From the NCBI GenBank assembly GCA_017433405.1, contig JAFRHH010000031.1, forward strand, positions 1 through 43,878: a stretch of DNA of 43,878 nucleotides. The letters run 5' to 3'. The notes under the pieces were generated by a model. That model saw nothing but the letters and a program-made list of their open reading frames with translations. It was not told where the DNA came from and made no database searches. Origin of the DNA: Clostridia bacterium (lineage in GTDB: Bacteria > Bacillota > Clostridia > Christensenellales > Aristaeellaceae). Each line of letters starts with the position of its first letter. The first letter of the stretch is position 1. A program made the translations under genes and the position numbers. This document shows positions 2,411 through 35,483 of this stretch, piece by piece.

Positions 2411-5400
2411 ATGGCTCAGAGGAGCGGGGGAAGAAAACAGGCGCCGACTTATTCTGCGGATACGCTGGCGCTGAGGATGATCGCGGGGCTGGCGCTGGTC
2501 GCGTTGGGCGTTTTGATTTTCATGGCGGTCGATCTGCGGATGACCGGAAATATTTTCGAAGGACTTCGGAGGGTCTGCTGCGGATTATGCGGCAGCCTTG
2601 CGATGATTCTGGCGGCTGTACCGCTTTGGGCTGGAATTCTGGTGATCTGGTCCACCCAGCGCAAACCTCCTGTCAGACCCTGGATCTATTTTCTAATCTG
2701 TTTTTTCGCGGTCAGTGGGTTTATTATGCTGATCAGCGGGAATGCCATGGAACATCTGCACAGACAGTATGGGGGAACCTGGGGAGGCGTTGTATCCGGC
2801 GCCTTTCAGGACTGCGCGAGAACCGGAACGGGCGGCGGAGGACTGGGAGCCAGCCTGGCTTGGCCACTGTGGCGATTTCTCGGCAATATCATCGGGTCAA
2901 CGCTTCTGTTTCTGCTGACGGTTTTCTGTGCCCTGATGGCGGTGGGGATGACCCCGATTCGTCTTCGGGAGCTGATTACCGGACAGGCTGGACGCATAAA
3001 AGAGGATCAGCAGCAGCAAAGAAATCTTTCGGAACAGGAACAGATGGCCTGGCAGCAGGAACAGGCGCTTCGTCAGGCGGCCTGGCAGCAGGAACAGGCC
3101 AGAATTATTGAACAGCAGCAAATGGCGCAGCAGCAGGTACAGCAGCCTGGAGCAGGGTATAGCGCGCCGGTTCAGGGTCCGGCGCCCGTTTTCGGAAACC
3201 CGGAGAGAACGGGAAGGAACAGCTCGGTGGCCGCCTGGCAGGATCAGCTGACGGCCCGGCAGACCGCGGCGGTTCCTCAGGCGGGATGGCTCAGCCGGAT
3301 CTTTAATCGGCCCCCCCAGGAACGCTCCGCTGACGAAGCGCCCGCGCGCAGGAAGGGAATCTTCGGAACCTCCCGGGATGAATACGATGGGCTGAGCGAC
3401 GGATCGACGCTGCGGAATACCGCCGGCGAACAGGCGGCGCGTCAGCTTCGGGCTGAAGCGGAACGGAAACCCCGCCGCACGGTAACCGGTGAGGAAATTG
3501 GAAAACCGGAAACCCGCTGGACGATCGGCCAGGACCAGGCTCCTGGTGTCAGCCGGGAGCCTCTCCGGCAGGAGACAGATGTTGTCCGCGATCGGGTCGG
3601 CGGAGCGGTCCCCCAATCGTCATCCGGGCAGAACGGCAGACGTGAACTGCCGTTTACAGAGGAGAACCGGGAAGCCGGAAAGGCCGAGCCGCAGGAAGCT
3701 TCCGTGCCTCGAAGCAGGATTTTTGACCGCAGGGAAACCGACCACAGGGAAGCGCCGGCGGAGGACCAGGATGCGCAGGAGCTGGCGGCGGAGCTGAAAA
3801 ATCGATGGGGACGCGGACGTGCGGGCGAAGCTTCGAACGCCGAAGCACTGGCGGCGGAGCTGAGAAACAGGTGGGGACGCGGCCAGGCGGATGAGACCAT
3901 GCAAAGCCGGCCTCAGGAGACAGATTCTGTCCGCGAACGCGTCAGCGAAGCGGCTGCAAAATCGTCATCCGGGCAGAACGGCAGACGTGAACTGCCGTTC
4001 ACAGAGGAGGAAGAAAGGAAGCAGGAGCAGCGCCCTGCCCTGAACCGGAATCAGCAGGAGGCGAAGCGGGAGAACGCTCAGCCTCCGAAGCCGGCAGTTC
4101 CGGTGGTCCAGATGACGGTCGGCGTGGAGGCCTATAAGCCAGCGCTGAAGGTGCCCCCAAAGGCGGAAAACGAGATCGACGCGCCTGGGGAAGCCTTCTG
4201 GGAGCCAACGCCTTATTATGCGCCTCCTCTGACGGATCTTGCGAGGCCTGCCCCCTCCCAGGAGGATACCGCGGCGGAGGATGAGATGCGCTCCCGCCGG
4301 CTGGAGGAAACGCTGCAGAGCTTCCGGGTTACGGCGCGGGTGGTGCATGTGACCCACGGTCCGGCGATTTCACGCTTTGAGCTGGAGCTGGCGGCGGGAA
4401 CGAAGGTAAACAAGGTCGCGGAGCTGGAGAAGGATATCGCCTACGGGATGGAAGCGACCTCCGTGCGGATTGAGGCGCCGATTCCGGGCAAGAGCCTGGT
4501 TGGCGTGGAGGTGCCGAACCGGAAGGTTTCGATGGTAACGCTGCGGGAGGTTATGGAAAGCGAGCGGATGCAGAACGCGAAGTCGCTTCTGACGGTGGCG
4601 CTTGGGAAGGATATCGCCGGAACGCCGATCATCTGCGATCTGGCAAAGATGCCGCATATGCTGATCGCAGGTCAGACGGGAAGCGGTAAATCGGTCTGTA
4701 TCAATACGATTATTAACAGCCTGCTCTTCCGGGCGAGTCCCGATGAGGTCAAGCTGATCCTGGTGGATCCGAAGGTGGTGGAGCTGCAGTGCTATAATGG
4801 CATTCCCCACCTGCTGATTCCGGTGGTTAACGATCCGCATAAGGCAGCGGCGGCCCTGGCCTGGGCGGTAGCGGAGATGATGGAGCGGTACGACCGGTTC
4901 GCGGAGCGGAAGGTTCGCAATTTGGACGGCTATAACGCGATCCTCGGTCCGCATGAGCAGCCGATGAGCCGGATCGTGATCATTATCGATGAGCTGGCGG
5001 ATCTGATGATGGTCTGTAAAAAGGATGTGGAGGAATACATCTGCCGACTGACGCAGCTGGCGCGGGCGGCAGGCATTCATCTGATCGTTGCGACCCAGCG
5101 CCCCTCGGTGGACGTGATTACCGGCCTGATCAAGGCGAATATTCCGAGCCGGATCGCCTTTAAAACGGCCAGCGCGGTGGACAGCCGGACGATTCTGGAC
5201 CGGGGAGGAGCGGATCAGCTGCTGGGGTGGGGCGATATGCTTTATCTGCCGACGGGTTCCTTTGCGCCGACCCGGGTGCAGGGCTGCTTCCTGAGCGATG
5301 AGGAAGTGAACCGGATCGCGTCCCATGTTCGGGAGGCGAACCCCTCATCCTACGATCCGAATATTCTTGAAAAGCTGGAGGAAATTTCCGGAGGCGGAGA

Positions 5401-5683
5401 AGCGTCCGGAATGGATATGATTACGGGAGGCGCGGAAGCGGCCGGCGGGGATGAAAACCTGTTCGACCAGGCGGTGGAATACGCGATCAATGACGGCCAG
5501 ATTTCGACCAGCACCCTGCAGCGGAGGCTGAAGATCGGCTATGCCCGGGCAGGCCGCCTGACGGATGAGATGGAGGAGCGGGGAATTATTGCCGCGAAGG
5601 ACGGCAGTAAACCCCGGAAGTGCCTCATCACCCGCGAGGAATGGGATGCCCTGAAAAAATCGACGGAGGGAATGAATCTTTAA
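2411..5683 (+). CDS. ftsK: DNA translocase FtsK/SpoIIIE family
   Basis: A membrane-anchored DNA pump that moves chromosome ends through the closing septum. The product has 1090 residues, longer than the usual 750-850. Four membrane segments lie in about the first 195 residues. A Gln-rich coil (about 197-245) and a long polar linker (to about 600) follow, then the beta and alpha motor domains. The Walker A motif GQTGSGKSV is near residue 754, Walker B is the IIIIDELADLMM region, and a winged-helix gamma domain is at the C-terminus (QRRLKIGYARAGRLTDEMEE). The linker is inflated by two kinds of in-frame repeat: a 32-codon duplication (3569-3664 and 3914-4009) and a tandem WGRG unit (about residues 453-497). 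The motor looks intact. SpoIIIE versus FtsK role cannot be decided from sequence. The DUF2974 gene starts 1 base after the stop. Confidence 0.95.
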   Translation: MAQRSGGRKQAPTYSADTLALRMIAGLALVALGVLIFMAVDLRMTGNIFEGLRRVCCGLCGSLAMILAAVPLWAGILVIWSTQRKPPVRPWIYFLICFFAVSGFIMLISGNAMEHLHRQYGGTWGGVVSGAFQDCARTGTGGGGLGASLAWPLWRFLGNIIGSTLLFLLTVFCALMAVGMTPIRLRELITGQAGRIKEDQQQQRNLSEQEQMAWQQEQALRQAAWQQEQARIIEQQQMAQQQVQQPGAGYSAPVQGPAPVFGNPERTGRNSSVAAWQDQLTARQTAAVPQAGWLSRIFNRPPQERSADEAPARRKGIFGTSRDEYDGLSDGSTLRNTAGEQAARQLRAEAERKPRRTVTGEEIGKPETRWTIGQDQAPGVSREPLRQETDVVRDRVGGAVPQSSSGQNGRRELPFTEENREAGKAEPQEASVPRSRIFDRRETDHREAPAEDQDAQELAAELKNRWGRGRAGEASNAEALAAELRNRWGRGQADETMQSRPQETDSVRERVSEAAAKSSSGQNGRRELPFTEEEERKQEQRPALNRNQQEAKRENAQPPKPAVPVVQMTVGVEAYKPALKVPPKAENEIDAPGEAFWEPTPYYAPPLTDLARPAPSQEDTAAEDEMRSRRLEETLQSFRVTARVVHVTHGPAISRFELELAAGTKVNKVAELEKDIAYGMEATSVRIEAPIPGKSLVGVEVPNRKVSMVTLREVMESERMQNAKSLLTVALGKDIAGTPIICDLAKMPHMLIAGQTGSGKSVCINTIINSLLFRASPDEVKLILVDPKVVELQCYNGIPHLLIPVVNDPHKAAAALAWAVAEMMERYDRFAERKVRNLDGYNAILGPHEQPMSRIVIIIDELADLMMVCKKDVEEYICRLTQLARAAGIHLIVATQRPSVDVITGLIKANIPSRIAFKTASAVDSRTILDRGGADQLLGWGDMLYLPTGSFAPTRVQGCFLSDEEVNRIASHVREANPSSYDPNILEKLEEISGGGEASGMDMITGGAEAAGGDENLFDQAVEYAINDGQISTSTLQRRLKIGYARAGRLTDEMEERGIIAAKDGSKPRKCLITREEWDALKKSTEGMNL
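3569..3664 (+). repeat. SD-hairpin repeat, coding copy 1 (in ftsK linker)
   Basis: A 96-base unit duplicated in frame at 3914-4009. Its last 50 bases (3615-3664) are the core repeat seen upstream of many genes here. The hairpin arms AACGGCAG (3632-3639) and CTGCCGTT (3647-3654) are perfect, followed by ACAGAGGAG. Translated, the core gives GQNGRRELPFTEE. Confidence 0.9.
3766..3900 (+). repeat. Tandem 16-20 residue WGRG repeat in ftsK linker
   Basis: Two consecutive copies of a unit reading xLAAELKNRWGRG and ALAAELRNRWGRG, separated by RAGEASNAE. The DNA copies (GAGCTGGCGGCGGAGCTGAA and CACTGGCGGCGGAGCTGAGA type) are also close, indicating a recent duplication inside the disordered linker. 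Confidence 0.75.
3914..4009 (+). repeat. SD-hairpin repeat, coding copy 2 (in ftsK linker)
   Basis: Second copy of the 96-base unit, the same length as the first. The core at 3960-4009 differs from copy 1 by a single base (TTCACAG versus TTTACAG). The 5' part (QETDSVRERVSEAAAK) has diverged more than the core. GTCAGCGAAGCGG inside this 5' part recurs at 15957 before purN, so the longer unit is not confined to ftsK. Confidence 0.9.
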
Positions 5684-5684
5684 A

Positions 5685-6851
5685 ATGGCGAATATGACGG
5701 ATTACGTGGCCTGGCGCGGAGATATGGAGATGGCGCATTCGCCCTGGAACTGTATTGATGCCCTGCTGATGTCGACAGTCTGCTATTTGAATTTTCATGG
5801 CGTGGACAGCGCGCAGGGGTGGACGATGGAGGAAGCGGCCCGGATTGATCTTCTGCAGGACAGTCCGTTCGCAAGCTTTCCGCCCCGAAAAGAAGCGTTT
5901 CTGGCCATGGCGAAAAGCCCCCGGTTCAGGCAGTGCAGGATGCATTATTTCATCGCGCTGACGGATCCCGAAAAGCGGATGCAGTTTTCGGCCATGTGCA
6001 TAGATTTGCCGGACGGAACCGTCTGCGTGGCGTTCCGGGGAACGGACAATACGCTGATCGGCTGGCATGAGGATTTCGACATGGCTTATCAGCCGGTCGT
6101 TCCGGGCCAGCAGGCGGCGAAGGCTTATCTGGAGCAGGTAGCGGAGCTGACGGATCGGCCGCTGAGGCTGGTTGGCCACAGCAAGGGCGGCAATCTGGCG
6201 GTTTACGCGGCAGCCTGCGTGGCTCCCACGATTCAGGACCGGATTGAAAGCATCTGGAATTTTGACGGGCCGGGCATGCATCATGATGTTTTCAGGAGCG
6301 AAGGCTATGCCCGGGTGGTGGATCGGATCCATACCTATATTCCGCAGACCAGCATCATCGGACTCCTGATGGATTACAGCGAGCGTTATACGGTGGTTTA
6401 TTCCACGGCGTCAGGCATTACCCAGCATGATCCGATGACCTGGCAGGTTTACGGGCCCCGCTTTGAGGAGCGGCCAGGGATTGATCAGACGGCCTCCGTG
6501 GTCCGCGACACCCTGCATGACTGGCTGGAGAATTCGACGCCGGAGCAGCGGGGCGCTTTTGTGGATACGATGTTTCGCCTGGCCGAAACGACGCAGGCCA
6601 AAACGATGAGCGAGCTGGCGAACGAAAAGCTGAAGAGCGTGATGACGATGATCGGAAACCGGAAAGAGATTCCGCCGGAAGCCAGAAGGGTCTTCAGCCG
6701 GCTGGTCGCCCAGGCGGTGACCCTGGGTTTTGGCAATGTCATCGAGCGGGTTCGGGGCCGGAAGGAAGAGGAAGAAGAGGACAATGGAAGACATGAACTG
6801 ACGGTCACAGAGAGGAAAAAAGAGCTGAAAAAGAAACCGCCGGAGGCGTAA
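5685..6851 (+). CDS. DUF2974 (Mbeg1-like) alpha/beta-hydrolase
   Basis: A 388-residue lipase-like protein. The N-terminus (MANMTDYVAWRGD) matches the usual start of DUF2974 proteins. A class-3-lipase-like core carries the nucleophile elbow GHSKGG (about residues 164-169), preceded by CVAFRGTDNT. The physiological substrate of this family is not known to me. ATG at 5685 has only a distant GGAGGG (14 bases), but the start is supported by the conserved N-terminus and by tight coupling to ftsK. The Lys/Glu-rich C-terminal tail contains a copy of the dispersed repeat, read as NGRHELTVTER, in the same frame as the two ftsK copies. The last residues (KKELKKKPPEA) look like added tail. Confidence 0.85.
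   Translation: MANMTDYVAWRGDMEMAHSPWNCIDALLMSTVCYLNFHGVDSAQGWTMEEAARIDLLQDSPFASFPPRKEAFLAMAKSPRFRQCRMHYFIALTDPEKRMQFSAMCIDLPDGTVCVAFRGTDNTLIGWHEDFDMAYQPVVPGQQAAKAYLEQVAELTDRPLRLVGHSKGGNLAVYAAACVAPTIQDRIESIWNFDGPGMHHDVFRSEGYARVVDRIHTYIPQTSIIGLLMDYSERYTVVYSTASGITQHDPMTWQVYGPRFEERPGIDQTASVVRDTLHDWLENSTPEQRGAFVDTMFRLAETTQAKTMSELANEKLKSVMTMIGNRKEIPPEARRVFSRLVAQAVTLGFGNVIERVRGRKEEEEEDNGRHELTVTERKKELKKKPPEA
6782..6815 (+). repeat. SD-hairpin repeat, coding copy 3 (end of DUF2974 gene)
   Basis: Degenerate copy: AATGGAAGACATGAACTGAC, then GGTCACAGAGAGG. The arms no longer pair well. It is translated in the same frame as the ftsK copies and lies about 40 bases before the stop codon. Confidence 0.7.
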
Positions 6852-6856
6852 ATCCC

Positions 6857-6886
6857 TTGACAGTTTCAGGGTGATTATGGTAAAAA
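6857..6886 (+). promoter_or_regulatory. Promoter of the pyr operon
   Basis: TTGACA (6857-6862), 18-base spacer, TAAAAA (6881-6886). The -35 is consensus and the -10 is weak. It begins 5 bases after the stop of the DUF2974 gene and precedes a leader of about 220 bases. Confidence 0.6.
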
Positions 6887-6921
6887 ATGTCCGGAGCCTT
6901 TGTTTCGGAAGGAGCGGCGGC

Positions 6922-7113
6922 ATGGAAAGAAAAGTGTTCCGTTTTGCGAAGGATGGTGCCCCGGTGGCCTGCAACAATGATATACAGGATACTTTTCCCG
7001 GCTTCTGTGATGGATATACACATTTCAGGAAGCCGGGTTTTTTGTATATGTCTGCCCCTGGCGGCGGATCGATTGGCGGCGGGGAAAGGGAAAGAAAGGG
7101 GCGGCAGGACTGA
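6922..7113 (+). CDS. Candidate pyr leader peptide
   Basis: A 63-codon reading frame with a good ribosome site (AAGGAG 6909-6914, 7 bases before ATG). It starts MERKVFRFAKDGAPVACNND and ends with TGA at 7111-7113, overlapping the pyrK ATG as TGATG. The terminator-like hairpin at 6997-7043 falls inside codons 26-41. In E. coli pyrBI a leader frame running through the attenuator lets coupled translation suppress termination when UTP is low. The same geometry is visible here. No similarity to a known protein is claimed, and it could be a fortuitous frame. Confidence 0.45.
   Translation: MERKVFRFAKDGAPVACNNDIQDTFPGFCDGYTHFRKPGFLYMSAPGGGSIGGGERERKGRQD
6997..7043 (+). terminator. Candidate attenuator in the pyr leader
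   Basis: CCCGGCTTC (6997-7005) pairs perfectly with GAAGCCGGG (7029-7037), followed at once by TTTTTT (7038-7043). It lies between the promoter at 6857 and pyrK at 7113, where a terminator would switch the operon. I see no PyrR-box-like sequence in the leader. Confidence 0.75.
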
Positions 7114-7856
7114 TGAAGCAGGAGTGGCTTGCGATTCGGGAAAATACGGCCATCGCGCCGGGCGTATACCGCGTCACCCTGGAGGGGGAGACGCTGGAGG
7201 AGCTCCATCCGGGAAGCTTCGTGAATCTGCGGATGGACGGGCTCTTTCTTCGCCGGCCTCTCTCCGTTTTCGATTCGGAGCCGGGACGGCTGAAGCTGAT
7301 CTATAAAGTAGTAGGAAAGGGAACGGAGCGCCTTTCCGCGCTGGCCCCGGGCAGCAAGCTGGACGTTTTGACGGGCCTGGGCAATGGCTATGATCTGGCT
7401 AAAGCCGGATCCCATACCCTGCTCCTGGGGGGCGGCGTGGGGGTTCCGCCGCTGTATTTTGCGGCGCGAAAGCTCCTGGCCGCGGGAAAGCGGGTTACGG
7501 CGGTGCTGGGGTTTAATTCCGCCGCAGAGGTCTTTGGCGAAGCGGAATTCCACGCCCTGGGGTGCGCCGTCACCGTTACGACGGTGGATGGAACCTTTGG
7601 GACAAAGGGCTTCGTGACGGATGCCCTGCCGGAGAAGTATGATTATTTCCTGTGCTGCGGCCCCATGCCGATGCTCCGGGCGGTGGCCCGGGCGACGCGG
7701 ACGGACGGCCAGTTCTCCTTCGAGGAGCGGATGGGATGCGGCTTCGGGGCCTGTATGGGGTGCAGCATCCAAACCCGCGGCGGGGCGAAGCGGGTCTGTC
7801 GGGAGGGGCCGGTGTTCGAGAAGGCGGAAATCCTCTGGGACGGGGAAGAAAAATAA
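7113..7856 (+). CDS. pyrK: Dihydroorotate dehydrogenase electron-transfer subunit PyrK
   Basis: Iron-sulfur flavoprotein that passes electrons from PyrD to NAD+ in class 1B dihydroorotate dehydrogenase. The product has 247 residues, normal for the family. The N-terminal FAD-binding barrel carries RRPLSVFD (about residues 49-56). An NAD-binding part with GGGVGVPPL follows. A C-terminal 2Fe-2S domain has Cys209, Cys214, Cys217 and Cys229. ATG 7113 overlaps the stop of the leader frame. pyrD starts 20 bases downstream, as expected for subunits of one complex. Confidence 0.96.
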   Translation: MKQEWLAIRENTAIAPGVYRVTLEGETLEELHPGSFVNLRMDGLFLRRPLSVFDSEPGRLKLIYKVVGKGTERLSALAPGSKLDVLTGLGNGYDLAKAGSHTLLLGGGVGVPPLYFAARKLLAAGKRVTAVLGFNSAAEVFGEAEFHALGCAVTVTTVDGTFGTKGFVTDALPEKYDYFLCCGPMPMLRAVARATRTDGQFSFEERMGCGFGACMGCSIQTRGGAKRVCREGPVFEKAEILWDGEEK

Positions 7857-7875
7857 GGAAGGAAGTGCCGGAATA

Positions 7876-8811
7876 ATGGGCGCGGAGAGGCTTGCGGCAG
7901 AGCTCTGCGGAAGGCGGATTGATAATCCGGTCATTCCTGCCAGCGGGACCTTCGGGTTCGGGTATGAGTTCGCCGAAATTTATGATATCAACATTCTGGG
8001 AAGCATCAGCATCAAGGGGACGACCCGGGAGCCGCGATACGGGAATCCGACGCCCCGCATCGCGGAGGCGCCCGAGGGGATGATCAACAGCGTTGGGCTG
8101 CAGAATCCGGGGGTCGAGGCGGTGATCCGGGAGGAGCTGCCGCGGCTGGGAAAGGTTTTTCAAAAGCCCGTCATCGCCAACGTCAGCGGCTTTTCCGTTG
8201 AGGAATACGCCGATGTCGCGTCCCGGCTCGACGGGGAGGATCAGGTCGGATGGATCGAGGTCAACATCAGCTGTCCAAACGTTCACGGCGGGGGCATGAG
8301 CTTCGGGACGGAGCCAGCCGCCGCGGAGGCGGTGACCCGGGCCGTGCGGCGGGTCTGCCGGAAGCCGATCATACTGAAGCTGAGCCCCAACGCGGGCAAC
8401 ATCACTGAGATCGCGAAGGCCTGCGAAGGGGCCGGGGCGGACGGGGTCAGCCTTATCAATACCATTACGGCGATGCGGATCGACCTGAAGACCAGGAAGC
8501 CCGTTCTCAGGAATGTGATTGGGGGTCTCAGCGGGCCGGCGGTGTTTCCCGTCGCGCTACGCATGGTATACCAGACAGCCAGAGCCGTTTCCATCCCGGT
8601 CGTCGGGATCGGCGGGATTCGCAGCCCGGAGGACGTGCTCGAGATGATGATGGCCGGGGCGTCGGCGGTTCAGGTTGGGGCGGCGAACCTTGTCGATCCC
8701 CTGGCCTGCAAAAAAATCATCGAAGGTCTTCCGGCGGCCATGGACCGATACGGCATCCGAACACTTTCGGAGCTGCGGGGACAGGCCCGGGAGGACGGAG
8801 GACGGGAATAG
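7876..8811 (+). CDS. pyrD: Dihydroorotate dehydrogenase class 1B catalytic subunit
   Basis: Oxidises dihydroorotate to orotate using FMN, in complex with PyrK. The product has 311 residues. FMN and substrate motifs are clear: IINSVGLQNPG-like MINSVGLQNPG, NISCPNV with the class-1 catalytic Cys at residue 133, and GIGGI plus GASAVQVG near the C-terminus. The start at 7876 follows AAGGAAGG. A longer upstream frame overlaps pyrK and lacks family sequence, so it was discarded. A repeat copy begins at the stop codon. Confidence 0.97.
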   Translation: MGAERLAAELCGRRIDNPVIPASGTFGFGYEFAEIYDINILGSISIKGTTREPRYGNPTPRIAEAPEGMINSVGLQNPGVEAVIREELPRLGKVFQKPVIANVSGFSVEEYADVASRLDGEDQVGWIEVNISCPNVHGGGMSFGTEPAAAEAVTRAVRRVCRKPIILKLSPNAGNITEIAKACEGAGADGVSLINTITAMRIDLKTRKPVLRNVIGGLSGPAVFPVALRMVYQTARAVSIPVVGIGGIRSPEDVLEMMMAGASAVQVGAANLVDPLACKKIIEGLPAAMDRYGIRTLSELRGQAREDGGRE

Positions 8812-8836
8812 CAGAGGTGAACTGCCGTTCACAGAA
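8806..8836 (+). repeat. SD-hairpin repeat before pyrF
   Basis: GAATAGCAGAGGTGAACTGC then CGTTCACAGAA. The left arm is truncated and overlaps the pyrD stop (TAG 8809-8811). The core CTGCCGTTCACAGA is identical to the ftsK copy. Here the repeat does not supply the ribosome site; a separate GAGAGGAG follows about 20 bases later. Confidence 0.8.
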
Positions 8837-9586: not shown

Positions 9587-9630
9587 GAGAAACGACAGAC
9601 GTGAACTGTCGTTCGCAGAGAAAAAGGAGG
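9587..9630 (+). repeat. SD-hairpin repeat before pyrE
   Basis: The arms are AACGACAG (9591-9598) and CTGTCGTT (9606-9613), a perfect 8-bp stem with loop ACGTGAA. Relative to ftsK copies both arms changed at the matching position (G-C to A-T), so pairing is kept. The ribosome site AAAAAGGAGG (9621-9630) lies just after. Confidence 0.9.
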
Positions 9631-13233: not shown

Positions 13234-13250
13234 TGGTGTCCTTTGAGGGA

Positions 13251-13286
13251 AGAACAGCAGACGTGAATTACCATTCACAAGAGGAG
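13251..13286 (+). repeat. SD-hairpin repeat before purF
   Basis: AGAACAGCAGACGTGAATTA then CCATTCACAAGAGGAG. The loop and SD end are conserved, but the right arm has lost pairing with the left. GAGGAG (13281-13286) is the purF ribosome site, 7 bases before ATG. Confidence 0.85.
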
Positions 13287-15908: not shown

Positions 15909-15956
15909 CCCCGAGCACGGGATCCTGCGGCCGCGGTGCGCGCGCGATTCCAGGGG

Positions 15957-16028
15957 GTCAGCGAAGCGGTTATAAAAATCGTCATCCGTCGCAGAAGGAC
16001 AGACGAGAACTGACGTTAAACAGAGGAG
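15957..16028 (+). repeat. SD-hairpin repeat, long copy before purN
   Basis: Begins GTCAGCGAAGCGG, identical to part of the ftsK long unit, then AAAATCGTCATCCG, AGACGAGAACTGACG and ACAGAGGAG. The arms are degenerate. GAGGAG (16023-16028) is the purN ribosome site, 5 bases before ATG. This is the most complete non-coding copy. Confidence 0.9.
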
Positions 16029-16706: not shown

Positions 16707-17426
16707 ATGGAGATTTATCGCATGGGGACGGTGGAGGAGCTCATCGGAAGGGATCCCTATCCGGGCAGAGGGATCATCATTGGGAAGACGCCGGACGGGA
16801 CCAGGGCGATGACGGCCTATTTCATCATGGGGCGGAGCGCCAACAGCCGGAACCGGATCTTCGCCGAGCGGGACGGGGCGGTGTTTACCGAGCCCTTCGA
16901 CGCGTCGAAGGTTCAGGATCCGAGCCTGATTATCTACGCCGCGGTTCGGTGCGTTAATAACCACCTCATCGTGACCAACGGGAACCAGACGGATACCATC
17001 GCCGAGGGACTTCAGGCGGGAAAAAGCTTTTCCGAGGCGCTCGAGAGCCGGACGTTTGAGCCGGACGGCCCGAACTGGACGCCGCGGATCAGCGGAATGC
17101 TCAGTTTCGGGGAGGGAGATTTCAGCTATCAGATGAGCATTCTTAAGAGCGCAGACGCGGAAGGAAGCGCCTGCAACCGGTTTACCTACAGCTACACGCC
17201 GGTCGCCGGGCTGGGGCACTTTATCCATACTTATGTTGGGGACGGGAATCCGCTGCCGACCTTCCAGGGGGAGCCGGAGCGGATCGCCGTAGCGGACGGG
17301 ATTGACGAGATGACAGACCGGATCTGGAAGGCGCTCGACGGGGAGAACAAGATCAGCCTTTTCGTTCGGTATATCGGACTGAAGGATGGGACGGTTGAGA
17401 GCCGGATGATGAACAAGAATCAGTAA
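16707..17426 (+). CDS. purO: IMP cyclohydrolase, archaeal PurO type
   Basis: Predicted to close FAICAR to IMP, the last step. The product has 239 residues. The sequence YPGRGIIIGKTPDG ... YFIMGRSANSRNRIF and the conserved region around CVNNHLIVTNGNQTDTI match the PF07826 family, which includes archaeal PurO, not the MGS-like N-terminal domain of ordinary PurH. ATG 16707 is preferred because GGAGG lies 11 bases upstream; ATG 16686 is in frame but has a weaker site. The next gene is a stand-alone AICAR transformylase, so together they replace bifunctional PurH. Confidence 0.88.
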   Translation: MEIYRMGTVEELIGRDPYPGRGIIIGKTPDGTRAMTAYFIMGRSANSRNRIFAERDGAVFTEPFDASKVQDPSLIIYAAVRCVNNHLIVTNGNQTDTIAEGLQAGKSFSEALESRTFEPDGPNWTPRISGMLSFGEGDFSYQMSILKSADAEGSACNRFTYSYTPVAGLGHFIHTYVGDGNPLPTFQGEPERIAVADGIDEMTDRIWKALDGENKISLFVRYIGLKDGTVESRMMNKNQ

Positions 17427-17427
17427 G

Positions 17428-17488
17428 GCGTTGCCAAAATCGTCGTCCGTCGCAGAAAGGCAGACGTGAAGGGACGTTCATAGAGGAG
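17428..17488 (+). repeat. SD-hairpin repeat before purH
   Basis: Starts 2 bases after the purO stop: GCGTTGCCAAAATCGTCGTCCG, broken here as GCGTTGCC and AAAATCGTCGTCCG, then GGCAGACGTGAAGGGACGTT and CATAGAGGAG. The right arm is changed and pairing is lost. GAGGAG (17483-17488) serves purH. Confidence 0.88.
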
Positions 17489-17500: not shown

Positions 17501-18685
17501 ATGAAGGAATTTGAGCTCAAATACGGATGCAATCCGAACCAGAAGCCGGCGAAGATCTATATGAAGAACGGCGGGGAGCTGCCCATCGAGATCCTCAGCG
17601 GGCGGCCCGGGTATATCAATTTTCTCGATGCTTTTAACAGCTGGCAGCTGGTGAAAGAGCTGAAGGAGGCGCTGGGAATGCCGGCGGTCACCAGCTTTAA
17701 GCATGTCAGCCCCACCAGCGCCGCCGTCGGGATTCCGCTGAGCCCGGAGCTGAAGAAGGCGTGCTTCGTCGACGATATCGAGGGACTTGACGAGTCCCCC
17801 CTCGCCTGCGCCTACGCCCGGGCCCGGGGGACGGATCGAATGTGTTCCTTTGGGGACTGGGTCGCGATGAGCGACGTATGCGATGTTACGACGGCGAAGA
17901 TGCTCAGGCGGGAGGTTTCCGACGGGGTGATCGCGCCGGGCTATGAGCCGGAGGCGCTGGAGATTCTGAAGACCAAGCGGAAGGGGAACTACAACATCGT
18001 CCGGATCGATCCGGATTATATTCCGGAAGAGCAGGAGACCAAGCAGGTTTTCGGGATCACCTTTGAGCAGGGGCGGAACAATTTCAGGATTGACCGGGCG
18101 CTGCTGGAGGAGATCGTAACGAAGGAGAAAGAGCTGCCGGAGAGCGCGAAGCGGGATTTGATTATTGCGCTGATTACGCTGAAGTACACCCAGTCCAACA
18201 GCGTATGCTACGCGGTCGACGGTCAGGCCATCGGCGTCGGCGCCGGTCAGCAGAGCCGGATTCACTGCACGCGGCTGGCGGGGAGCAAGGCGGACACCTG
18301 GTTCCTGCGGCAGCACGAGAAGGTGCTGAATCTTCCCTTCCGGGCGGATCTCGGAAGGCCGGAGCGGGATAACGTCATCGACGGATACATCAACCAGAAC
18401 GAGGAGAACGTGACGGCGGACGGAAACTGGCAAAAATATTTTACCGAGCAGCCCAAGCCGCTGACGGAGACCGAGAAGCGGGCCTTCCTCGATACCCGTC
18501 GCGACGTCGCCCTCGGAAGCGACGCCTTCTTCCCCTTCAGCGACAATATCGAGCGGGCGTACAGGAGCGGGGTTCGGTATATCGCCGAGCCGGGCGGATC
18601 CATCCGGGACGATGCGGTGATCGAATGCTGTGACAGGTACGGGATGACGATGTGCTTCACCCATATGCGGCTTTTCCACCATTAA
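17501..18685 (+). CDS. purH: AICAR transformylase (stand-alone PurH C-terminal domain)
   Basis: Formylates AICAR with 10-formyl-THF. The product has 394 residues, against about 510-530 for bifunctional PurH. The first residues, LKYGCNPNQKPAKIY, already match the transformylase domain, so the IMP cyclohydrolase domain is absent rather than lost to a frameshift. The catalytic Lys-His pair is in SFKHVSPTSAAVG (about residues 66-78). SNSVCYAVDGQAIGVGAGQQSR is also conserved. It pairs with the PurO-type cyclohydrolase just upstream. Confidence 0.93.
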   Translation: MKEFELKYGCNPNQKPAKIYMKNGGELPIEILSGRPGYINFLDAFNSWQLVKELKEALGMPAVTSFKHVSPTSAAVGIPLSPELKKACFVDDIEGLDESPLACAYARARGTDRMCSFGDWVAMSDVCDVTTAKMLRREVSDGVIAPGYEPEALEILKTKRKGNYNIVRIDPDYIPEEQETKQVFGITFEQGRNNFRIDRALLEEIVTKEKELPESAKRDLIIALITLKYTQSNSVCYAVDGQAIGVGAGQQSRIHCTRLAGSKADTWFLRQHEKVLNLPFRADLGRPERDNVIDGYINQNEENVTADGNWQKYFTEQPKPLTETEKRAFLDTRRDVALGSDAFFPFSDNIERAYRSGVRYIAEPGGSIRDDAVIECCDRYGMTMCFTHMRLFHH

Positions 18686-18728
18686 TCCGTCGCAGCATGG
18701 CAGACGTGAAGGAATGTTCAAAGAGGAG
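18684..18728 (+). repeat. SD-hairpin repeat before purD
   Basis: Begins inside the purH stop codon: AATCCGTCGCAG, then ATGGCAGACGTGAAGGAATG and TTCAAAGAGGAG. Pairing is lost, but loop and SD are kept. GAGGAG (18723-18728) is the purD ribosome site, 10 bases before ATG. Confidence 0.87.
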
Positions 18729-20102: not shown

Positions 20103-20138
20103 AAAAACGGCAGGCGTGAATGAAGGTTCACAGAGGAG
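20103..20138 (+). repeat. SD-hairpin repeat before purL
   Basis: AAAAACGGCAGGCGTGAATG then AAGGTTCACAGAGGAG. The left arm AACGGCAG is conserved and the right arm is lost. GAGGAG (20133-20138) is the purL ribosome site, 9 bases before ATG. Confidence 0.85.
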
Positions 20139-23895: not shown

Positions 23896-23918
23896 GAAGA
23901 CGGACGTTCCCAGAGGAG
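23896..23918 (+). repeat. Degenerate SD-hairpin repeat before fhs
   Basis: GAAGACGGACGTTCCC then AGAGGAG. Only the right-hand end of the repeat is recognisable. AGAGGAGG supplies the fhs ribosome site. The assignment rests on position and the conserved 3' end. Confidence 0.55.
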
Positions 23919-30067: not shown

Positions 30068-30125
30068 AAAAAGGCCAAAAGAGTATGATCTGGGATAAAA
30101 AACGAATAGATTCTACATCCGGCGC

Positions 30126-30154: not shown

Positions 30155-30256
30155 AATGGTCGTATAGGAAACAGAATCAGTTTTCAGGGAAAGTTGAATT
30201 GTTTGTTTTTATCATTCTTTCTTTCGCCTGAGACCATTCGGAAAGGATGCAGGAAA

Positions 30257-31237
30257 ATGAGTGTAGTCAACAGGATCCAACCCAGACCGCGCGGAAAGCA
30301 TGCGTCCCAGGGCGGATGGCAGCGTCAGGCGGCCTATCTGACCATGGTGCTTCCCGGCGTGATTCTGCTGCTGATGTTTGCGTATCTGCCGATGCCCGGT
30401 ATTATTCTGGCTTTCAAAAACTACCAGATGACCGTGCCGACGGAGACATCCTTCTTTAAGAACATCTTCCTGAACAGCCTGGTGGCGTCCAAGTGGAACG
30501 GGCTGAATAACTTCACCTATCTGCTGAAGGACGCCCCGATGCTGATCCGGAACACGGTGGGCTACAACCTGCTGTTCATGGTGGTCGGCGTGATCCTGCA
30601 GGTCGGCCTGGCCGTCGTCATCAATGAGATGCGGAACCGCCGGACGGCGAAGGTGTATCATACGATCGCCTTCATGCCCTACTTTGTCAGCTGGATCGTG
30701 GTCATGTACGCCCTGTACGCCATGATCGCCTTCAACGGCTTCTTTAATCAGGTGTCCGGCGCGGCGATCCGGTATTACAATGAACCCCGCTTCTGGCCAT
30801 GGATCTTCCTGATTGCTAATATCTGGAAATATACCGGCCAGGGCTCCATCATCTATCTGGCAACGCTGACAGGCTTTGATGAACAGCTTTATGAAGCCGG
30901 CGCCATCGACGGGGCCAGCAAATGGCAGCAGTTCCGCTATATCACCCTGCCGCAGCTGATGCCAACGATCGTCATGCTCCAGATCCTGGCGGTCGGCCGG
31001 ATCTTTAACGGCGACTTTGATATGTTCTACTCCCTGCCGAACGGATCCGGAACCCTGCGCCAGGTGACGACGACGATCGATGTCTATGTGTATGACATGC
31101 TGAAAAAGGGCAACCTGAGGAACTCCTTCGGCTATGCCGGCGCGGGCGCCTTCTTCCAGTCGGTGGTCGGCTTCGTGCTGATTCTGGTGACGAACCGCAT
31201 CGTGAAGCGGCATCAGCCTGAAATGGCGCTGTTCTGA
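30257..31237 (+). CDS. Sugar ABC importer 2, permease (LplB type)
   Basis: Channel subunit of a polysaccharide/oligosaccharide-type importer. The product has 326 residues. The N-terminal motif LPGVILLLMFAYLPMPGIILAFKNY is characteristic of the LplB/YtrF-like permease group. The EAA loop reads YEAGAIDGASKWQQFRYITLP. ATG 30257 follows AAAGGATGCAGGAAA; the upstream in-frame ATGs lie within the promoter leader. First gene of the operon, 17 bases before its partner. Confidence 0.93.
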   Translation: MSVVNRIQPRPRGKHASQGGWQRQAAYLTMVLPGVILLLMFAYLPMPGIILAFKNYQMTVPTETSFFKNIFLNSLVASKWNGLNNFTYLLKDAPMLIRNTVGYNLLFMVVGVILQVGLAVVINEMRNRRTAKVYHTIAFMPYFVSWIVVMYALYAMIAFNGFFNQVSGAAIRYYNEPRFWPWIFLIANIWKYTGQGSIIYLATLTGFDEQLYEAGAIDGASKWQQFRYITLPQLMPTIVMLQILAVGRIFNGDFDMFYSLPNGSGTLRQVTTTIDVYVYDMLKKGNLRNSFGYAGAGAFFQSVVGFVLILVTNRIVKRHQPEMALF

Positions 31238-31254
31238 GGAAAGGAGGAAGAAGA

Positions 31255-32211
31255 ATGACTAGTGTGGATCGCAGGGAAGCGAAGCGGCTGATGAAGCTGG
31301 AAAAGGAAGCCGCGAAGCACAGCATGGCCCGCAACCAGATTTCCCGCGGGACGAATACGGCTTTCAATATTCTGCTGATCATCTTCTGCGCGCTGATTAT
31401 TTTCCCGCTCTGGATTATCATCATCTCCTCCATTACGAGCGAGAGAGCGCTGACGACCTACGGCTACCGGCTCTGGCCCATGGAGTTCTCCGTCAACGCC
31501 TATACCTATCTGTTCAGGGACGGGTCGATTATCCTGACGGCGTATAAGAATACGCTGATCGCGACCGTGGCCGGGACGGTGCTCTCCGTGATTACCGTGG
31601 GCCTTTACGCCTACGCCCTGAGCCGGCCGGATTTCCGGTATAAGAAATTCTTTACCTTCTTCAGCTTCTTTACGATGCTCTTTGGCGGCGGCATGGTCAG
31701 CTATTATAATATGTGCCGCAGCGTGCTGGGTCTGAAGGATACGGTCTGGGCGCTCTTCCTGCCCATGTCCTTTTCCGCCTACTGGGTGATTATCATGAGG
31801 ACCTTCTATCAGTCGACTGTGCCGGAAGCGATTATCGAGTCCGCCCGGATTGACGGCTCCGGCGAATGGCGCACCCTGCTTCAGATCGTCTGCCCCCTGG
31901 CGCTGCCGGGGTTTGCGACGGTCGGCCTCTTCAGCGCCATCGGCGTCTGGAACGATTTCCGGAACTGCCTGCTGCTGAACGACTCCGCCCAGTATTATAA
32001 CCTGCAGTATACGATCTATCAGACGATGAACAACCTTCGCTTCCTGAAGGAAAACGCATCCCGGATGGGTGGCGTCAACGTGGCCAACCTGCCGGCCGAA
32101 ACCTTCCGGATGGCGATGGCGGTGGTCACGGTGGGCCCCATCATCATGGCCTATCCCTTCTTCCAGAAGTATTTTGTCAAGGGCCTGACCGTCGGTGCCG
32201 TCAAGGGGTAA
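31255..32211 (+). CDS. Sugar ABC importer 2, permease (LplC type)
   Basis: Partner of the preceding permease. The product has 318 residues: a cytoplasmic N-terminus of about 40 residues, six membrane segments, and the EAA loop IESARIDGSGEWRTLLQIVCP. The ending (FFQKYFVKGLTVGAVKG) is typical of the LplC/YtcP group. A small GAGCC/GGCTC hairpin follows the stop, before the ribosome site of the binding-protein gene. Confidence 0.93.
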   Translation: MTSVDRREAKRLMKLEKEAAKHSMARNQISRGTNTAFNILLIIFCALIIFPLWIIIISSITSERALTTYGYRLWPMEFSVNAYTYLFRDGSIILTAYKNTLIATVAGTVLSVITVGLYAYALSRPDFRYKKFFTFFSFFTMLFGGGMVSYYNMCRSVLGLKDTVWALFLPMSFSAYWVIIMRTFYQSTVPEAIIESARIDGSGEWRTLLQIVCPLALPGFATVGLFSAIGVWNDFRNCLLLNDSAQYYNLQYTIYQTMNNLRFLKENASRMGGVNVANLPAETFRMAMAVVTVGPIIMAYPFFQKYFVKGLTVGAVKG

Positions 32212-32281
32212 GCGGAGCCCCGTGCAACTATGATTTCGGGAGCCGGCAGGCTCTTGAAAAAAATAAAAGGAGGAACCCATT

Positions 32282-33781
32282 ATGCGTAAACTGGTATCCC
32301 TGATGCTGGCGCTGGCGATGATGCTGGCGCTGCTGCCCACCGCCATGGCGGCTGACTATACCCTGGATATCTACTGGGTCGGCAACGGCGACAACGAAGC
32401 GGTTCGCGCCGGCGTTGAAGCGGCTGTCAACGAGTATGTCGAGGATAAGATCGGAGCGAAGGTCTCCTATCATATCATCGGCTGGGGCGACTGGAACGAC
32501 AAGGCCATCAATGCCCTGCAGTCCGGCGAGAAGATGGATCTGATCTTCACGGCCGACTGGGAAGGCTATGGCGTTGAGGTTTCCGGCGGCCTGCTCATGC
32601 CCCTGGATGAGCTGCTGGATAAGTATGGCCAGGGCATTAAGGACACCCTGCCCCAGACTTTCCTGGATGGCGTCAAGGTGAACAACGTGCTCTACGGCAT
32701 CCCCACCAACAAGGAACTGTGCGTGCCGGAAGGCTTCATCATCAACAAGACCGCCGCTGAGGCGATCGGCTGGGATGTGAAGGCGGACGATCCCTCCATC
32801 AAGACCACGGCTGATCTGGAGCCCTGGCTGCAGAAGTACAAGGAAATGTTCCCCGACAAGTATCCCTATCTGATGGACGGTCAGGCTGGCCGCTGGGCCG
32901 ATGAACCCTGGTGCCCCGACTGGGCCGGCATGGGAACCAACTCCATCGCCATGAAGATGGCCAAGGGCGAGGATGGCAACTTTGACGAGACCATCTACAG
33001 CATCTTCGCGACCCCCGAGCAGGAAGAGCATATCCGCCTCATGTATAAGTGGGCGCAGGCCGGCTACATCAGCCCGGACGCCGCTCTGACCAGCTTTGAC
33101 TACAACGGCACCTTCGGCCGCGGCGACTTCCTGGTCTTCTCTCAGCCCCTGAAGGGCAACGGCATCAAGGCTGCTGAAATGTATCAGGCCAACGCGACCG
33201 CCGAGTTCGAGTGCGTTGAAATCACCATGCAGCCCAAGTATGTTGTGACCACGCATGCCGGCGGCTCCATGTTCGCGATTCCGGTCACCTGCCAGAATCC
33301 CGAAGCGGCCATGAAGTATCTGAACCTCATGCACAGCGATCCGACCCTGGTCAACCTCATGCTCTTCGGTAAGGAAGGCGTGAACTACACCAAGATCGAT
33401 GACACGACCGTTGAAGTGACCCCCGACGCCAACTGGTACGGCGTGCACGGCGGCGCCTGGACCGTGGGCAACACCCTGCTCCAGTATGTCACCAAGGGCG
33501 AGGATCCTCAGAAGAACGCGCTGCTGCAGTCCTATGCGGATGACGCGATCGCGACGGCTTCCCTGGGCTTCCGCTTCGTGAAGGACAATGTGGCCGATCA
33601 GATCGCGGCGGTGGACGCGGTGGTCAGCGAGAAGGCCAACCCCCTCATGTGCGGCCAGGTGGATCCGGATGATCCGAACCTGGGCATCGAAGCCCTGAAG
33701 GCTGATCTGACGGCGGCCGGCATGGATGCGATCATCGCAGAAGTGCAGAAGCAATATGACGCCTGGAAGGCTGCGAAGTAA
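32282..33781 (+). CDS. Sugar ABC importer 2, binding protein (LplA type)
   Basis: Extracellular solute-binding protein of 499 residues, the size of the LplA/YtcQ group that pairs with LplB/LplC permeases. The signal peptide ends LLPTAMA then ADYT, an AxA site without a lipobox Cys. The mature start DYTLDIYWVGNGDNEAV and the NKTAAEAIGWDVKADDPSIKTT segment are as in the group. ATG follows AAAAGGAGGAACCCATT, nearly identical to the leader of the first binding-protein gene. Codon use is strongly biased, suggesting high expression. Confidence 0.92.
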   Translation: MRKLVSLMLALAMMLALLPTAMAADYTLDIYWVGNGDNEAVRAGVEAAVNEYVEDKIGAKVSYHIIGWGDWNDKAINALQSGEKMDLIFTADWEGYGVEVSGGLLMPLDELLDKYGQGIKDTLPQTFLDGVKVNNVLYGIPTNKELCVPEGFIINKTAAEAIGWDVKADDPSIKTTADLEPWLQKYKEMFPDKYPYLMDGQAGRWADEPWCPDWAGMGTNSIAMKMAKGEDGNFDETIYSIFATPEQEEHIRLMYKWAQAGYISPDAALTSFDYNGTFGRGDFLVFSQPLKGNGIKAAEMYQANATAEFECVEITMQPKYVVTTHAGGSMFAIPVTCQNPEAAMKYLNLMHSDPTLVNLMLFGKEGVNYTKIDDTTVEVTPDANWYGVHGGAWTVGNTLLQYVTKGEDPQKNALLQSYADDAIATASLGFRFVKDNVADQIAAVDAVVSEKANPLMCGQVDPDDPNLGIEALKADLTAAGMDAIIAEVQKQYDAWKAAK

Positions 33782-33818
33782 TCTCTGACGTAAACCGGAA
33801 CCGGGAAACCGGGTCGGG

Positions 33819-33869
33819 GAGCCGTGAAGGCAGGGATTGAAAAATCCTGAGCCTCACGGCTCTCTTTTT
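33819..33869 (+). terminator. Terminator of importer operon 2
   Basis: GAGCCGTGA (33819-33827) pairs perfectly with TCACGGCTC (33854-33862), followed by TCTTTTT. Confidence 0.85.
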
Positions 33870-33923
33870 ATGGGAAAGAACCCTGAACAGGCAAAACTGA
33901 AAATAGAAAAAATAAAAAGGCTA

Positions 33924-33952
33924 TTGACAAGAAGACTGGAAGCGAATAGAAT
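33924..33952 (+). promoter_or_regulatory. Promoter of sugar importer operon 3
   Basis: TTGACA (33924-33929), 17-base spacer, TAGAAT (33947-33952). Both hexamers are strong. Confidence 0.85.
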
Positions 33953-33963
33953 GTCCTTGCTTT

Positions 33964-33979
33964 CGGTAACGTTTTCGGT
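33964..33979 (+). promoter_or_regulatory. LacI-type operator candidate
   Basis: CGGTAACGTTTTCGGT just downstream of the -10, around the expected transcription start. Its centre, AACGTTTTC, resembles LacI/CcpA half-sites but is imperfect. Confidence 0.35.
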
Positions 33980-34025
33980 TGCCGATTTGGACAAACAAAA
34001 GGAGAACAAAACCGGAACCTGTGGA

Positions 34026-34053
34026 TTTGAAACGACGGAGCGTCGTTTTCAAA
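34026..34053 (+). promoter_or_regulatory. 5' UTR hairpin before binding protein 3
   Basis: AACGACG (34031-34037) pairs with CGTCGTT (34041-34047), loop GAG. The outer TTTGA/TCAAA bases extend it with a one-base bulge. It lies in the leader before the AAGGAGGG site, in the same relative place as the hairpins of operon 1. Confidence 0.5.
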
Positions 34054-34091
34054 TAGCGGCTTTGGCCGAAAAATGAAGGAGGGTTATTCCC

Positions 34092-35324
34092 ATGAAGAAA
34101 CTGGTTGCTCTGGTTCTGACGCTGGCGCTGATGCTGACAGCGGTTTCCGCCCTGGCTGATATTGTGATCTGCCAGAACAAGGTGGAAATTACTTCCCAGA
34201 TGGAAGAGTTTGCCAAGGTTTACAAGGAGAAGACCGGCGTGGATGTCAAGGTTATCACCGGCGGCGGGTCTTCCGACTACAACACCGTGCTGAAGGCTGA
34301 AATGCAGTCCGGCCGGGAGCCTGACATCTTCGTGATCGAAGGCCCCAGCAGCTACGAGCTCTGGAAGGACAAGATTGCGGATCAGTCCGGCGCGGAGTGG
34401 ACCAAGTATACCGCCGCCGCCTACATGGTGGACGGCAAGGCGGTGGGCTTCCCGGTGGCCGTGGAAGGCTACGGACTGGCCTACAACAAGAGCATCCTGG
34501 ACAAGGCCGGGATCGATCCGGCGACGCTGACCACCTATGACGCCTATGCCGCCGCGTTTGAGAAGCTGGATTCCATGAAGGCGGAGCTGGGGCTGGACAT
34601 GGTGGTTTCCATGGTGGCCGGCACGACGACGGGCATGACCTGGGTCACCGGTCTGCATAACTTCAACGTTTATCTGACCGTGGGCAACGAGCGCAATGAC
34701 ACCACCTATATCGACCAGGTGCTGCAGGGCAAGGTGGACGAAGAGCGGTTCCATCAGTACTGTCAGTATGTCGCGCTGCTGTTCAAGTACAGCGATCCGG
34801 ACATGCTGCTGAACGGAACCCAAGACAGCCAGCTGGCTGCCTTCGCAAATGGAAAGGCTGCCTTCTATCATCAGGGCAACTGGATGGATCCTTCCCTGGT
34901 CGCCCTGAATCCTGATTTCGAAATTGCCTACGCGCCCCATGCGTTCCTGCATGAAGCGACCGACGGCATCCTGGTGAATCCTCCGTCCTGGTACGTCGTG
35001 AACAAGAACGGCAACGTGGATGAAGCGCTGGCGTATCTGAACTTCCTGGCGACCTCCGACGAGGGCGCGGATTACATGGTGAACAAGGCGGCCATGGTGC
35101 CGGCCTTCACCAATGTGACGCTCGCTCCCGCTACGCCCCTGTCCAAGTCTGTCATGGACTGGAACGCGGCCGGCAAGACCTATGACTGGCAGCAGTACAA
35201 GCTCCCCGACGGTTTCGGCATGGGAACCCTGGGCCCGATCTACGAGCTGCTGGCCTCCGGCGCGGTGGATGTGGATACCTTTGAGACCATGATGAAGGAA
35301 GCGATCGCGGGGATCGCGAAGTAA
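34092..35324 (+). CDS. Sugar ABC importer 3, binding protein
   Basis: Extracellular solute-binding protein, 410 residues, of the MsmE/UgpB-like group. The signal peptide ends AVSALA then DIVI, an AxA site without lipobox Cys. Mature-part landmarks are VKVITGGGSSDYNTVLKAEMQSGREPDIF and AFANGKAAFYHQGNWMDP, the latter being a typical family-1 binding-protein signature. Encoded just upstream of two permeases and a GH13 glucosidase, so an alpha-gluco-oligosaccharide such as isomaltose or isomalto-oligosaccharide is a plausible ligand (inference). Confidence 0.92.
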   Translation: MKKLVALVLTLALMLTAVSALADIVICQNKVEITSQMEEFAKVYKEKTGVDVKVITGGGSSDYNTVLKAEMQSGREPDIFVIEGPSSYELWKDKIADQSGAEWTKYTAAAYMVDGKAVGFPVAVEGYGLAYNKSILDKAGIDPATLTTYDAYAAAFEKLDSMKAELGLDMVVSMVAGTTTGMTWVTGLHNFNVYLTVGNERNDTTYIDQVLQGKVDEERFHQYCQYVALLFKYSDPDMLLNGTQDSQLAAFANGKAAFYHQGNWMDPSLVALNPDFEIAYAPHAFLHEATDGILVNPPSWYVVNKNGNVDEALAYLNFLATSDEGADYMVNKAAMVPAFTNVTLAPATPLSKSVMDWNAAGKTYDWQQYKLPDGFGMGTLGPIYELLASGAVDVDTFETMMKEAIAGIAK

Positions 35325-35343
35325 GGAATCCAGGAACCTTTTC

Positions 35344-35386
35344 GGGGATGGTATTCAGGGTTACCCTCTGGTACCATCCCCTTTTT
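35344..35386 (+). terminator. Terminator-like hairpin after binding protein 3
   Basis: GGGGATGGTA (35344-35353) pairs perfectly with TACCATCCCC (35372-35381), then TTTTT. No new promoter is evident before the permease genes. It probably acts as a partial terminator giving more binding protein than permease. Confidence 0.85.
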
Positions 35387-35438
35387 CGACAGCCGAAAAA
35401 CTGGATGAAGGAGCGGCCGTAACGCTCCGTGGGAGACA

Positions 35439-35483
35439 CATCCGAACAGAATGGCAGACGTGAACTGCCTTTCACAAAGGAGG
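35439..35483 (+). repeat. SD-hairpin repeat before importer 3 permease
   Basis: CATCCGAACAG, then AATGGCAGACGTGAACTGCC and TTTCACAAAGGAGG. The GGCAG/CTGCC stem and loop ACGTGAA are kept. AAAGGAGG is the ribosome site, 5 bases before ATG. This copy lies 11.5 kb away from the last pur copy, so the family is not limited to nucleotide genes. Confidence 0.88.

Follow-up and report, generated by a model that had tools for sequence, protein, structure and literature searches.

A dispersed repeat in a 43,878-nucleotide (nt) stretch of DNA from a Clostridia bacterium (contig JAFRHH010000031.1; hereafter, the window) is probably a mobile but non-autonomous element about 90 nt long that inserts within GGAG, between GG and AG, on the mRNA-sense strand and in doing so rebuilds a Shine–Dalgarno site, most plausibly through single-strand HUH-type chemistry. 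The common view of small mobile repeats is that they collect in tolerant spacers. Here, the target motif and the end of the element are the same functional signal, such that an equivalent ribosome-binding motif would replace the old one, which offers a testable route for a selfish repeat through essential operons such as pyr and pur; it may spread through them without switching them off. At the level of sequence, the copies are shown to have a GGAG-like site on the left, a GGAG of the element's own on the right and no target duplication, to place a Shine–Dalgarno motif at native spacing, to lie in the sense orientation and, within genes, in frame, and to have empty sites as counterparts in relatives.

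The genome to which the window belongs (G000) is a 2.53-Mb draft in 92 contigs that is 89% complete. The exact 12-mer GGCAGACGTGAA, from the right part of the repeat, occurs in it 98 times and its reversed control not once, bearing out the original prediction, made from the window alone, of a dispersed and proliferating repeat; a covariance model (R1) built from 14 copies gives at least 150 matches. A profile, likewise built from 14 full copies, was run on 519 kb of G000 stretches around the copies found with R1 and the exact 12-mer, a set in which left-only and strongly mutated copies are under-counted. At the cut-off of 15 bits applied in all counts, which lowers the number of profile matches from 247 to 231, we found 131 complete copies, 85 consisting of the right part only and 15 others, a family far larger than a few local copies (the 231 may include several pieces of one copy). 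Taking the last copy of each tandem array as a unit leaves 209 units. Genes were called by a purpose-written codon-usage script, and P values assume independent units.

Read with its flanks, the unit extends from ACAG to a terminal GGAG (90 nt in 53 of 124 complete copies, 89 or 91–93 nt in 69, and 81 nt and 108 nt in one each). The core described in the original prediction is only a part of it, most window copies being without some or all of the left half. From left to right, the order is hairpin 1, TCATCCG, GGCAGAC, hairpin 2 (GTGAAC-N4-GTTCAC) and AGAGGAG. Hairpin 1 follows directly after GGAG and spans about 50 nt, with a GAC..GTC foot and then GATTTTGT..ACAAAATC, CCGC..GCGG and CGC..GCG. 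It covaries between the repeat of G000 (type-1; model R1) and a sister subfamily in relatives (type-2; model R2): across 31 copies of both, columns 10-53 are GC in 16 and UA in 8, columns 17-45 CG in 13 and UA in 10, and columns 20-40 GC in 16 and AU in 8. In the same copies, 84.9% of cells of the whole structure are paired, against 35.7–44.1% when the structure is slid, and double-sided changes number 38 cells against 14.9 in shuffles. Hairpin 2 is weaker across the subfamilies (73.1% of cells paired). Its arms had been predicted as GGCAG/CTGCC, a pairing of the same stretch that three of six singly folded copies do prefer; two form the consensus GTGAAC/GTTCAC and one forms neither. The ends of the element are not inverted repeats of each other, and tandem copies have one GGAG in common (22 head-to-tail joins). 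Short-period tandem arrays of right parts (about 55–64 nt) occur at C92:61391-61606 and C14:40145-40264 of G000, apparently made by internal deletion and slippage.

The edges of the copies define the target. On the left, the tetranucleotide is GGAG in 75 of 127 copies and its conservation drops away from the element (G 99%, A 92%, G 86%, G 72%), and the four element bases next to this edge are 97, 99, 76 and 96% conserved. On the right, GGAG stands in 143 of 181 copies, most of the exceptions listed differing in the last two bases only. Covariation of the two edges was examined in 86 unnested complete copies of at least 70 bits, one of which has no left flank at a contig end. GGAG stands at both edges in 50 of the 86, as would be expected of a conventional miniature inverted-repeat transposable element (MITE) moved by a DDE transposase with a 4-bp GGAG target duplication; however, among the 29 readable copies with another left edge, the same tetranucleotide is never found on the right (0/29), where 18 have GGAG. 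The left and right edges therefore do not vary together and target duplication is ruled out, which, with ends that lack inverted repeats, already contradicts a DDE element and makes that origin very unlikely. These edges are what insertion between GG and AG would leave if the element itself ended in GAGG, the break being uncertain by one or two bases. The transposing unit would then start at about AGACAG, take in hairpin 1, the TCATCCG linker and hairpin 2, and end at about GAGG, entering a GGAG-like site on the mRNA-sense strand. Since target duplication is lacking, the hairpins lie near the termini and the tetranucleotide is fixed, a single-strand HUH mechanism is our best guess; more tentatively, the chemistry would be that of IS200/IS605 transposases or of transposases like those associated with repetitive extragenic palindromes (REPs), known as RAYTs, with the enzyme supplied in trans.

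Empty sites in relatives agree with such insertion. When the flanks of 30 copies were joined without the element and searched in 18 relatives, the joined flanks aligned across the junction at at least 14 of the 30 sites, in at least 60 site–genome pairs among the matches listed. Of 24 alignments read closely, from 5 sites, 8 have GAG at the junction and 16 differ or are gapped at that point; the junction reads TTTCGGAG on the left and GAATGCATG on the right in relative G004, and AGAGGAG followed by AGGGATCAG in G009. We also compared window spacers of the pur/pyr type. The repeat was in none of the seven that carry a copy here when these were compared in up to ten relatives (an eighth, before the gene at 7113, holds no copy), and the type-1 profile found no match at E 0.1 in the 231 kb of sequence used for this comparison. 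This comparison gave no clean breakpoints because the spacers are unalignable at such distance; the joined flanks worked better.

The same comparison leaves next to no probability that the repeat is an ordinary conserved operon leader common to the relatives, an idea for which we found no supporting evidence and which is already contradicted. The seven spacers are otherwise unrelated in relatives, so the sequence is not fixed there, and R1 has no match in 40 of the 44 other genomes of the genus (a set that includes many incomplete genomes and to which stricter filters were applied). The five of 45 genus genomes with a match are G000, G003, G012, G016 and G034. Under the stricter filter G000 has 94 matches and G003 one, a full copy within about 1.5 kb that is 97–100% identical to G000 and is flanked on both sides by sequence of 79–91% identity, and which was probably transferred. 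The near-identical 1.5 kb (L118 400-2000 in G000 C54, L275 in G003 C45) points to a recent transfer between the two species that took a tandem pair of the element with it.

Weak R1 matches in G012, G016 and G034 led to the sister subfamily of these three sister species, which has the same plan in other bases. Among 38 genomes, R2 matches 20 times in G016, 13 times in G034 and once each in G012 and G003, the last being the transferred type-1 copy. Sister copies, too, favour starts: 23 of 29 lie 3–19 nt before a start with an open frame, against 334 of 1,126 GGAG controls (tested slightly more strictly). A stricter sister-subfamily pattern was found in only 2 of 45 genomes, and R2 did better. 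In 300 genomes of the family, R2 matched six, five of them in the same genus; the sole match outside it, in G198, was dropped because the sequence does not look like the element. A type-2 match at L241 (12.2 bits) likewise looks like chance. A pattern for both subfamilies found two stretches in a species-genome collection, both from the metagenome-assembled genome RUG14271 (uncultured Clostridiales), which G034 matches, the sequence being the same in L203 and L206, and the type-1 pattern found none in viral contigs; either collection may omit the window's own or very near records. One sister copy (L223, G016 C88:23330) has an almost perfectly palindromic hairpin 1, and the profile matches it on both strands.

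Placement relative to genes links the target to ribosome binding. Of the 209 units, 177 precede a gene on the same strand, 19 are intragenic in the sense orientation, 10 are followed by a gene of the opposite strand and 3 have no next gene in the stretch. The ratio of 177 to 10 among the 187 intergenic units exceeds that of free GGAG targets, counted in the same 519-kb stretches only (478:128; P = 2.7 × 10⁻⁹). Start codons are likewise favoured, with 115 of 187 intergenic units placed there compared with 191 of 606 free targets (P = 4 × 10⁻¹⁷); 113 of these end 0–20 nt before the start and 2 have a called start ahead of the element end. The spacing from GGAG to the start peaks at 9–10 for elements and 8–10 for native sites. 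The start-proximal bias and the placement of the element's 3′ end at the ribosome-site position, both anticipated from the window, hold across the scanned set, and the 113 units form a natural set with exchanged sequence immediately ahead of the start codon. The element ends in the same motif as its target, and many of the GGAG sites at which it is tolerated are Shine–Dalgarno sites; insertion at a ribosome site would therefore keep one there, and the element could in this way accumulate in essential operons.

The sense bias extends beyond starts. More than 20 nt away from them, it is 62:4 compared with 287:119 for targets (P = 4.5 × 10⁻⁶), and within genes 19:0 compared with 4125:1274 usable GGAG sites (P = 0.006). 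Orientation by replication strand, judged by the majority gene strand of the contig and not by mapped replication direction, is rejected: the copies follow the strand of their own gene (31 of 35 on the minority strand still precede a same-strand gene).

Inside genes, there are 21 profile matches (19 units), all sense, and nearly all, by inspection, encode the peptide ETDFVRERxSEAxTKSSSGQNGRRELxFTEE; an exception is the copy at C9:28081, in a gene whose start is doubtful. The length of all 15 complete intragenic copies is a multiple of 3 nt, and lengths elsewhere are mixed. Hosts include FtsK (twice), MutL, an HI0933-like flavoprotein, an ABC transporter protein, an AraC-type regulator, a PP2C phosphatase, a biotin ligase and a YbeY–cytidine deaminase protein (9 of 10 host proteins scanned with Pfam had a match). 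Proteins such as FtsK, MutL and the biotin ligase thereby provide a natural set of in-frame insertions of about 30 residues.

Many copies have lost their left part. Exact right 12-mers fall in complete matches in 46 of 98 cases and in right-only matches in 48, whereas 68 of 80 exact left 13-mers lie in complete matches and 12 outside (one of the 12 is complete on reading). Right-only copies have scattered 5′ breakpoints and tails as conserved as those of complete copies (0.936 versus 0.927), and some shortened copies retain GGAGACAG, the middle being lost between two ACAG repeats. The 5′ loss could reflect either deletion that spares the right end as a ribosome site or truncation by the insertion itself. 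A rival reading is insertion that is coupled to transcription or passes through RNA, the element entering mRNA, or the non-template strand of an R-loop, at GGAG and being fixed by reverse transcription or single-strand repair. In favour of such a route are the sense bias above GGAG availability, both far from starts and within genes, the tracking of the gene rather than the contig, and the many copies whose 3′ end is intact and whose 5′ breakpoints are scattered, without added divergence. Yet deletion with a protected ribosome site yields the same truncations, left-only copies exist, and selection alone could remove antisense copies; we judge the route unlikely. An insertion specificity that is itself a sense-strand ribosome-binding motif reached through transcription, by which the element would colonise starts genome-wide and give host genes a Shine–Dalgarno site of its own, we likewise consider improbable.

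The excess of surviving right ends also bears on function. The original prediction saw in the repeat a ribosome-binding cassette, and its proliferation, co-orientation and nearness to starts stand; insertion into existing Shine–Dalgarno sites, and their restoration, fits these observations better. In its regulatory form, the idea is that the hairpin and Shine–Dalgarno module is selected for setting the translation or coupling of the following genes. Right halves outlast left halves, and conservation of the last six bases is slightly higher at starts than far from them (0.941 versus 0.879), as expected if they are used as a ribosome site. Against it, the rest of the right end is about equally conserved where the nearest called start is more than 20 nt away, such that recent mobility, and not regulatory selection, seems to account for most of its conservation. 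Copies also lie within genes and far upstream of them; in predicted folds, the accessibility of the terminal GGAG is about that of native sites (mean 0.498 versus 0.432, P = 0.05); and relatives have no copy in the seven pur/pyr spacers. Beyond the last six bases, these comparisons gave no sign of selection for regulation as opposed to tolerance of the element, and we consider the regulatory role possible but doubtful.

As to what moves the element, PF01797 (Y1_Tnp) matches one gene only in the 89% complete draft (C5:1183-1512), which encodes a protein of 247 residues whose Y1 domain is nearly complete. A complete element lies upstream in the same direction, and the gene's 3-kb locus contains no right-hand element copy. 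The transposase is a candidate mobiliser and no more; across the genus, the distribution of related transposases does not follow that of the element.

Several observations weigh against the proposed insertion mechanism or against this enzyme's part in it. After the right GGAG, element flanks have A in 48% and G in 42%, compared with G in 69% at native sites; the A-rich flanks imply either a target narrower than any Shine–Dalgarno site or a misplaced end. In IS608, the hairpin does not abut the junction, unlike hairpin 1 here. The element upstream of the Y1 gene may be there by chance, since a copy stands immediately before 8 of the 33 called genes of the window. The C5 protein seems to resemble, in length and C-terminal tail only (Pfam sees only Y1_Tnp), a Y1 transposase class that Quentin et al. 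report as found without REPs (PMC6006769). It sits on a long branch and is not grouped with the transposase of G016, which carries the sister subfamily; G034 (77% complete) has that subfamily and no Y1_Tnp match. Another repeat family, AGATACGTCC[CA]CG, adjoins the Y1 gene and occurs at 14 places in the 519 kb. No autonomous parent was found: of eight left-only loci, a single one is followed by a right end, and in its frames no transposase was recognised by eye, no family search having been made. The other dispersed repeat that adjoins the Y1 gene, built around AGATACGTCCCCG(T/C)GTCTT, has copies at C5:1855, C5:2994, C7:958 and elsewhere in G000, some of them near that gene and beside the ribosome-site element; it may be the Y1 transposase's own family.

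Set against named systems, as these are described in the available parts of the papers cited here, the element belongs with small non-autonomous palindromic elements and is unusual in its target. Palindrome-associated transposable elements (PATEs), derived from IS200/IS605, are short, lack terminal inverted repeats and have near-terminal palindromes and divergent subfamilies (PMC3119063); the element shares these traits, with sub-terminal hairpins at both ends, and also the repeat-mediated core deletions, but differs in its GGAG target, in a product that keeps a Shine–Dalgarno motif in place and in a left hairpin that touches the junction. IS200/IS605 elements insert beside a short target and own a tetranucleotide at the right end (PMC6006769), matching the fixed short target, absent target duplication and own right tetranucleotide here, and no such transposon sharing the element's ends was found in the 89% complete draft. 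With REPs and RAYTs the repeat has in common many copies, a tetranucleotide at the hairpin foot, some intragenic copies and a genomic Y1 transposase gene (PMC3733652, PMC2817692, PMC6006769). The REP tag, however, is GTAG or CGTC, neither of which is among the 12 commonest left edges here; the REP palindrome is 20–40 bp, as opposed to two unlike hairpins in about 90 nt with a hairpin 1 of about 50 nt; and REPs are found mainly downstream of coding regions, often in pairs of opposite orientation, whereas 177 of 187 intergenic units here precede a same-strand gene. REPs flank their cognate RAYT gene; here, the one Y1_Tnp gene has a complete element on its upstream side only. Rickettsia palindromic elements (RPEs) also insert in frame within genes with one conserved peptide (PMC10969869, PMC2229807) but are about 150 bp with terminal inverted repeats and occur in Rickettsia, as opposed to a genus that includes a Clostridiales metagenome-assembled genome, and the accessible text of these papers describes no ribosome-site targeting. 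BOX/RUP/SPRITE, ERIC and Correia elements resemble the repeat as small, dispersed, structured and transcribed sequences, some with reading frames; several differ in having terminal inverted repeats and target duplications, and the same partial sources on bacterial MITEs describe no repeat that supplies a Shine–Dalgarno site (PMC3049150, PMC2229807). As REPs, RPEs, PATEs and BOX/RUP each share one or two traits and are not described there as rebuilding such a site, the element is placed among small palindromic elements on the strength of these descriptions; in the open-access literature, so far as its accessible parts go, we found no report of a repeat that targets, supplies or rebuilds Shine–Dalgarno sites.

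In the window itself, the 12-mer with up to two mismatches has 15 matches, against 3.2 expected, and the profile finds 11 copies, every one of them on the + strand (ten reach the 15-bit cut-off, and one has 12.7 bits): two inside ftsK, one inside a DUF2974/Mbeg1-like gene and eight before pyrF, pyrE, purF (assigned from a match under NCBIfam's own cut-off), purN, a purH-type gene, purD, purL and an ABC permease gene. About twelve copies in 32 kb, co-oriented with the genes, had been proposed; the sites named agree except for fhs, where the profile detects no copy and the short resemblance ACGTTCCCAGAGGAG is a remnant at most, and the DUF2974 copy is weak. Only the two ftsK copies are full-length, the rest being without part or all of the left half. 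The copies and the doubtful remnant are as follows.

3570..3664, + strand: complete copy in ftsK, in frame, QETDVVRDRVGG...FTEE
3916..4009, + strand: complete copy in ftsK, in frame, QETDSVRERVSE...FTEE
6783..6812, + strand: weak right-end copy in the DUF2974/Mbeg1-like gene, 12.7 bits, below the 15-bit cut-off
8806..8835, + strand: right-end copy between a DHO_dh (pyrD-type) gene and pyrF, without the terminal GAGGAG; the ribosome site comes after the copy
9591..9620, + strand: right-end copy before pyrE, 8 nt past the pyrF stop
13240..13286, + strand: right-end copy before purF; profile match up to 13280, then GAGGAG at the Shine–Dalgarno position
15955..16028, + strand: 5′-shortened copy before purN; 5 nt between GAGGAG and ATG
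17420..17488, + strand: 5′-shortened copy before the purH-type AICAR formyltransferase gene, overlapping the preceding gene's stop
18683..18728, + strand: right-end copy before purD, overlapping the preceding gene's stop
20104..20138, + strand: right-end copy before purL
23903..23918, + strand: doubtful remnant before fhs, GACGTTCCCAGAGGAG; sequence reading only, no profile match
35439..35482, + strand: right-end copy before the ABC transporter permease gene

An Rfam search of the window at gathering thresholds matched the repeat to no family and returned only a 5S rRNA and one tRNA. Tandem coding repeats of 33-nt and 66-nt spacing are also present in ftsK, at 3041-3144 and 3782-3890 of the window, near both copies of the element.

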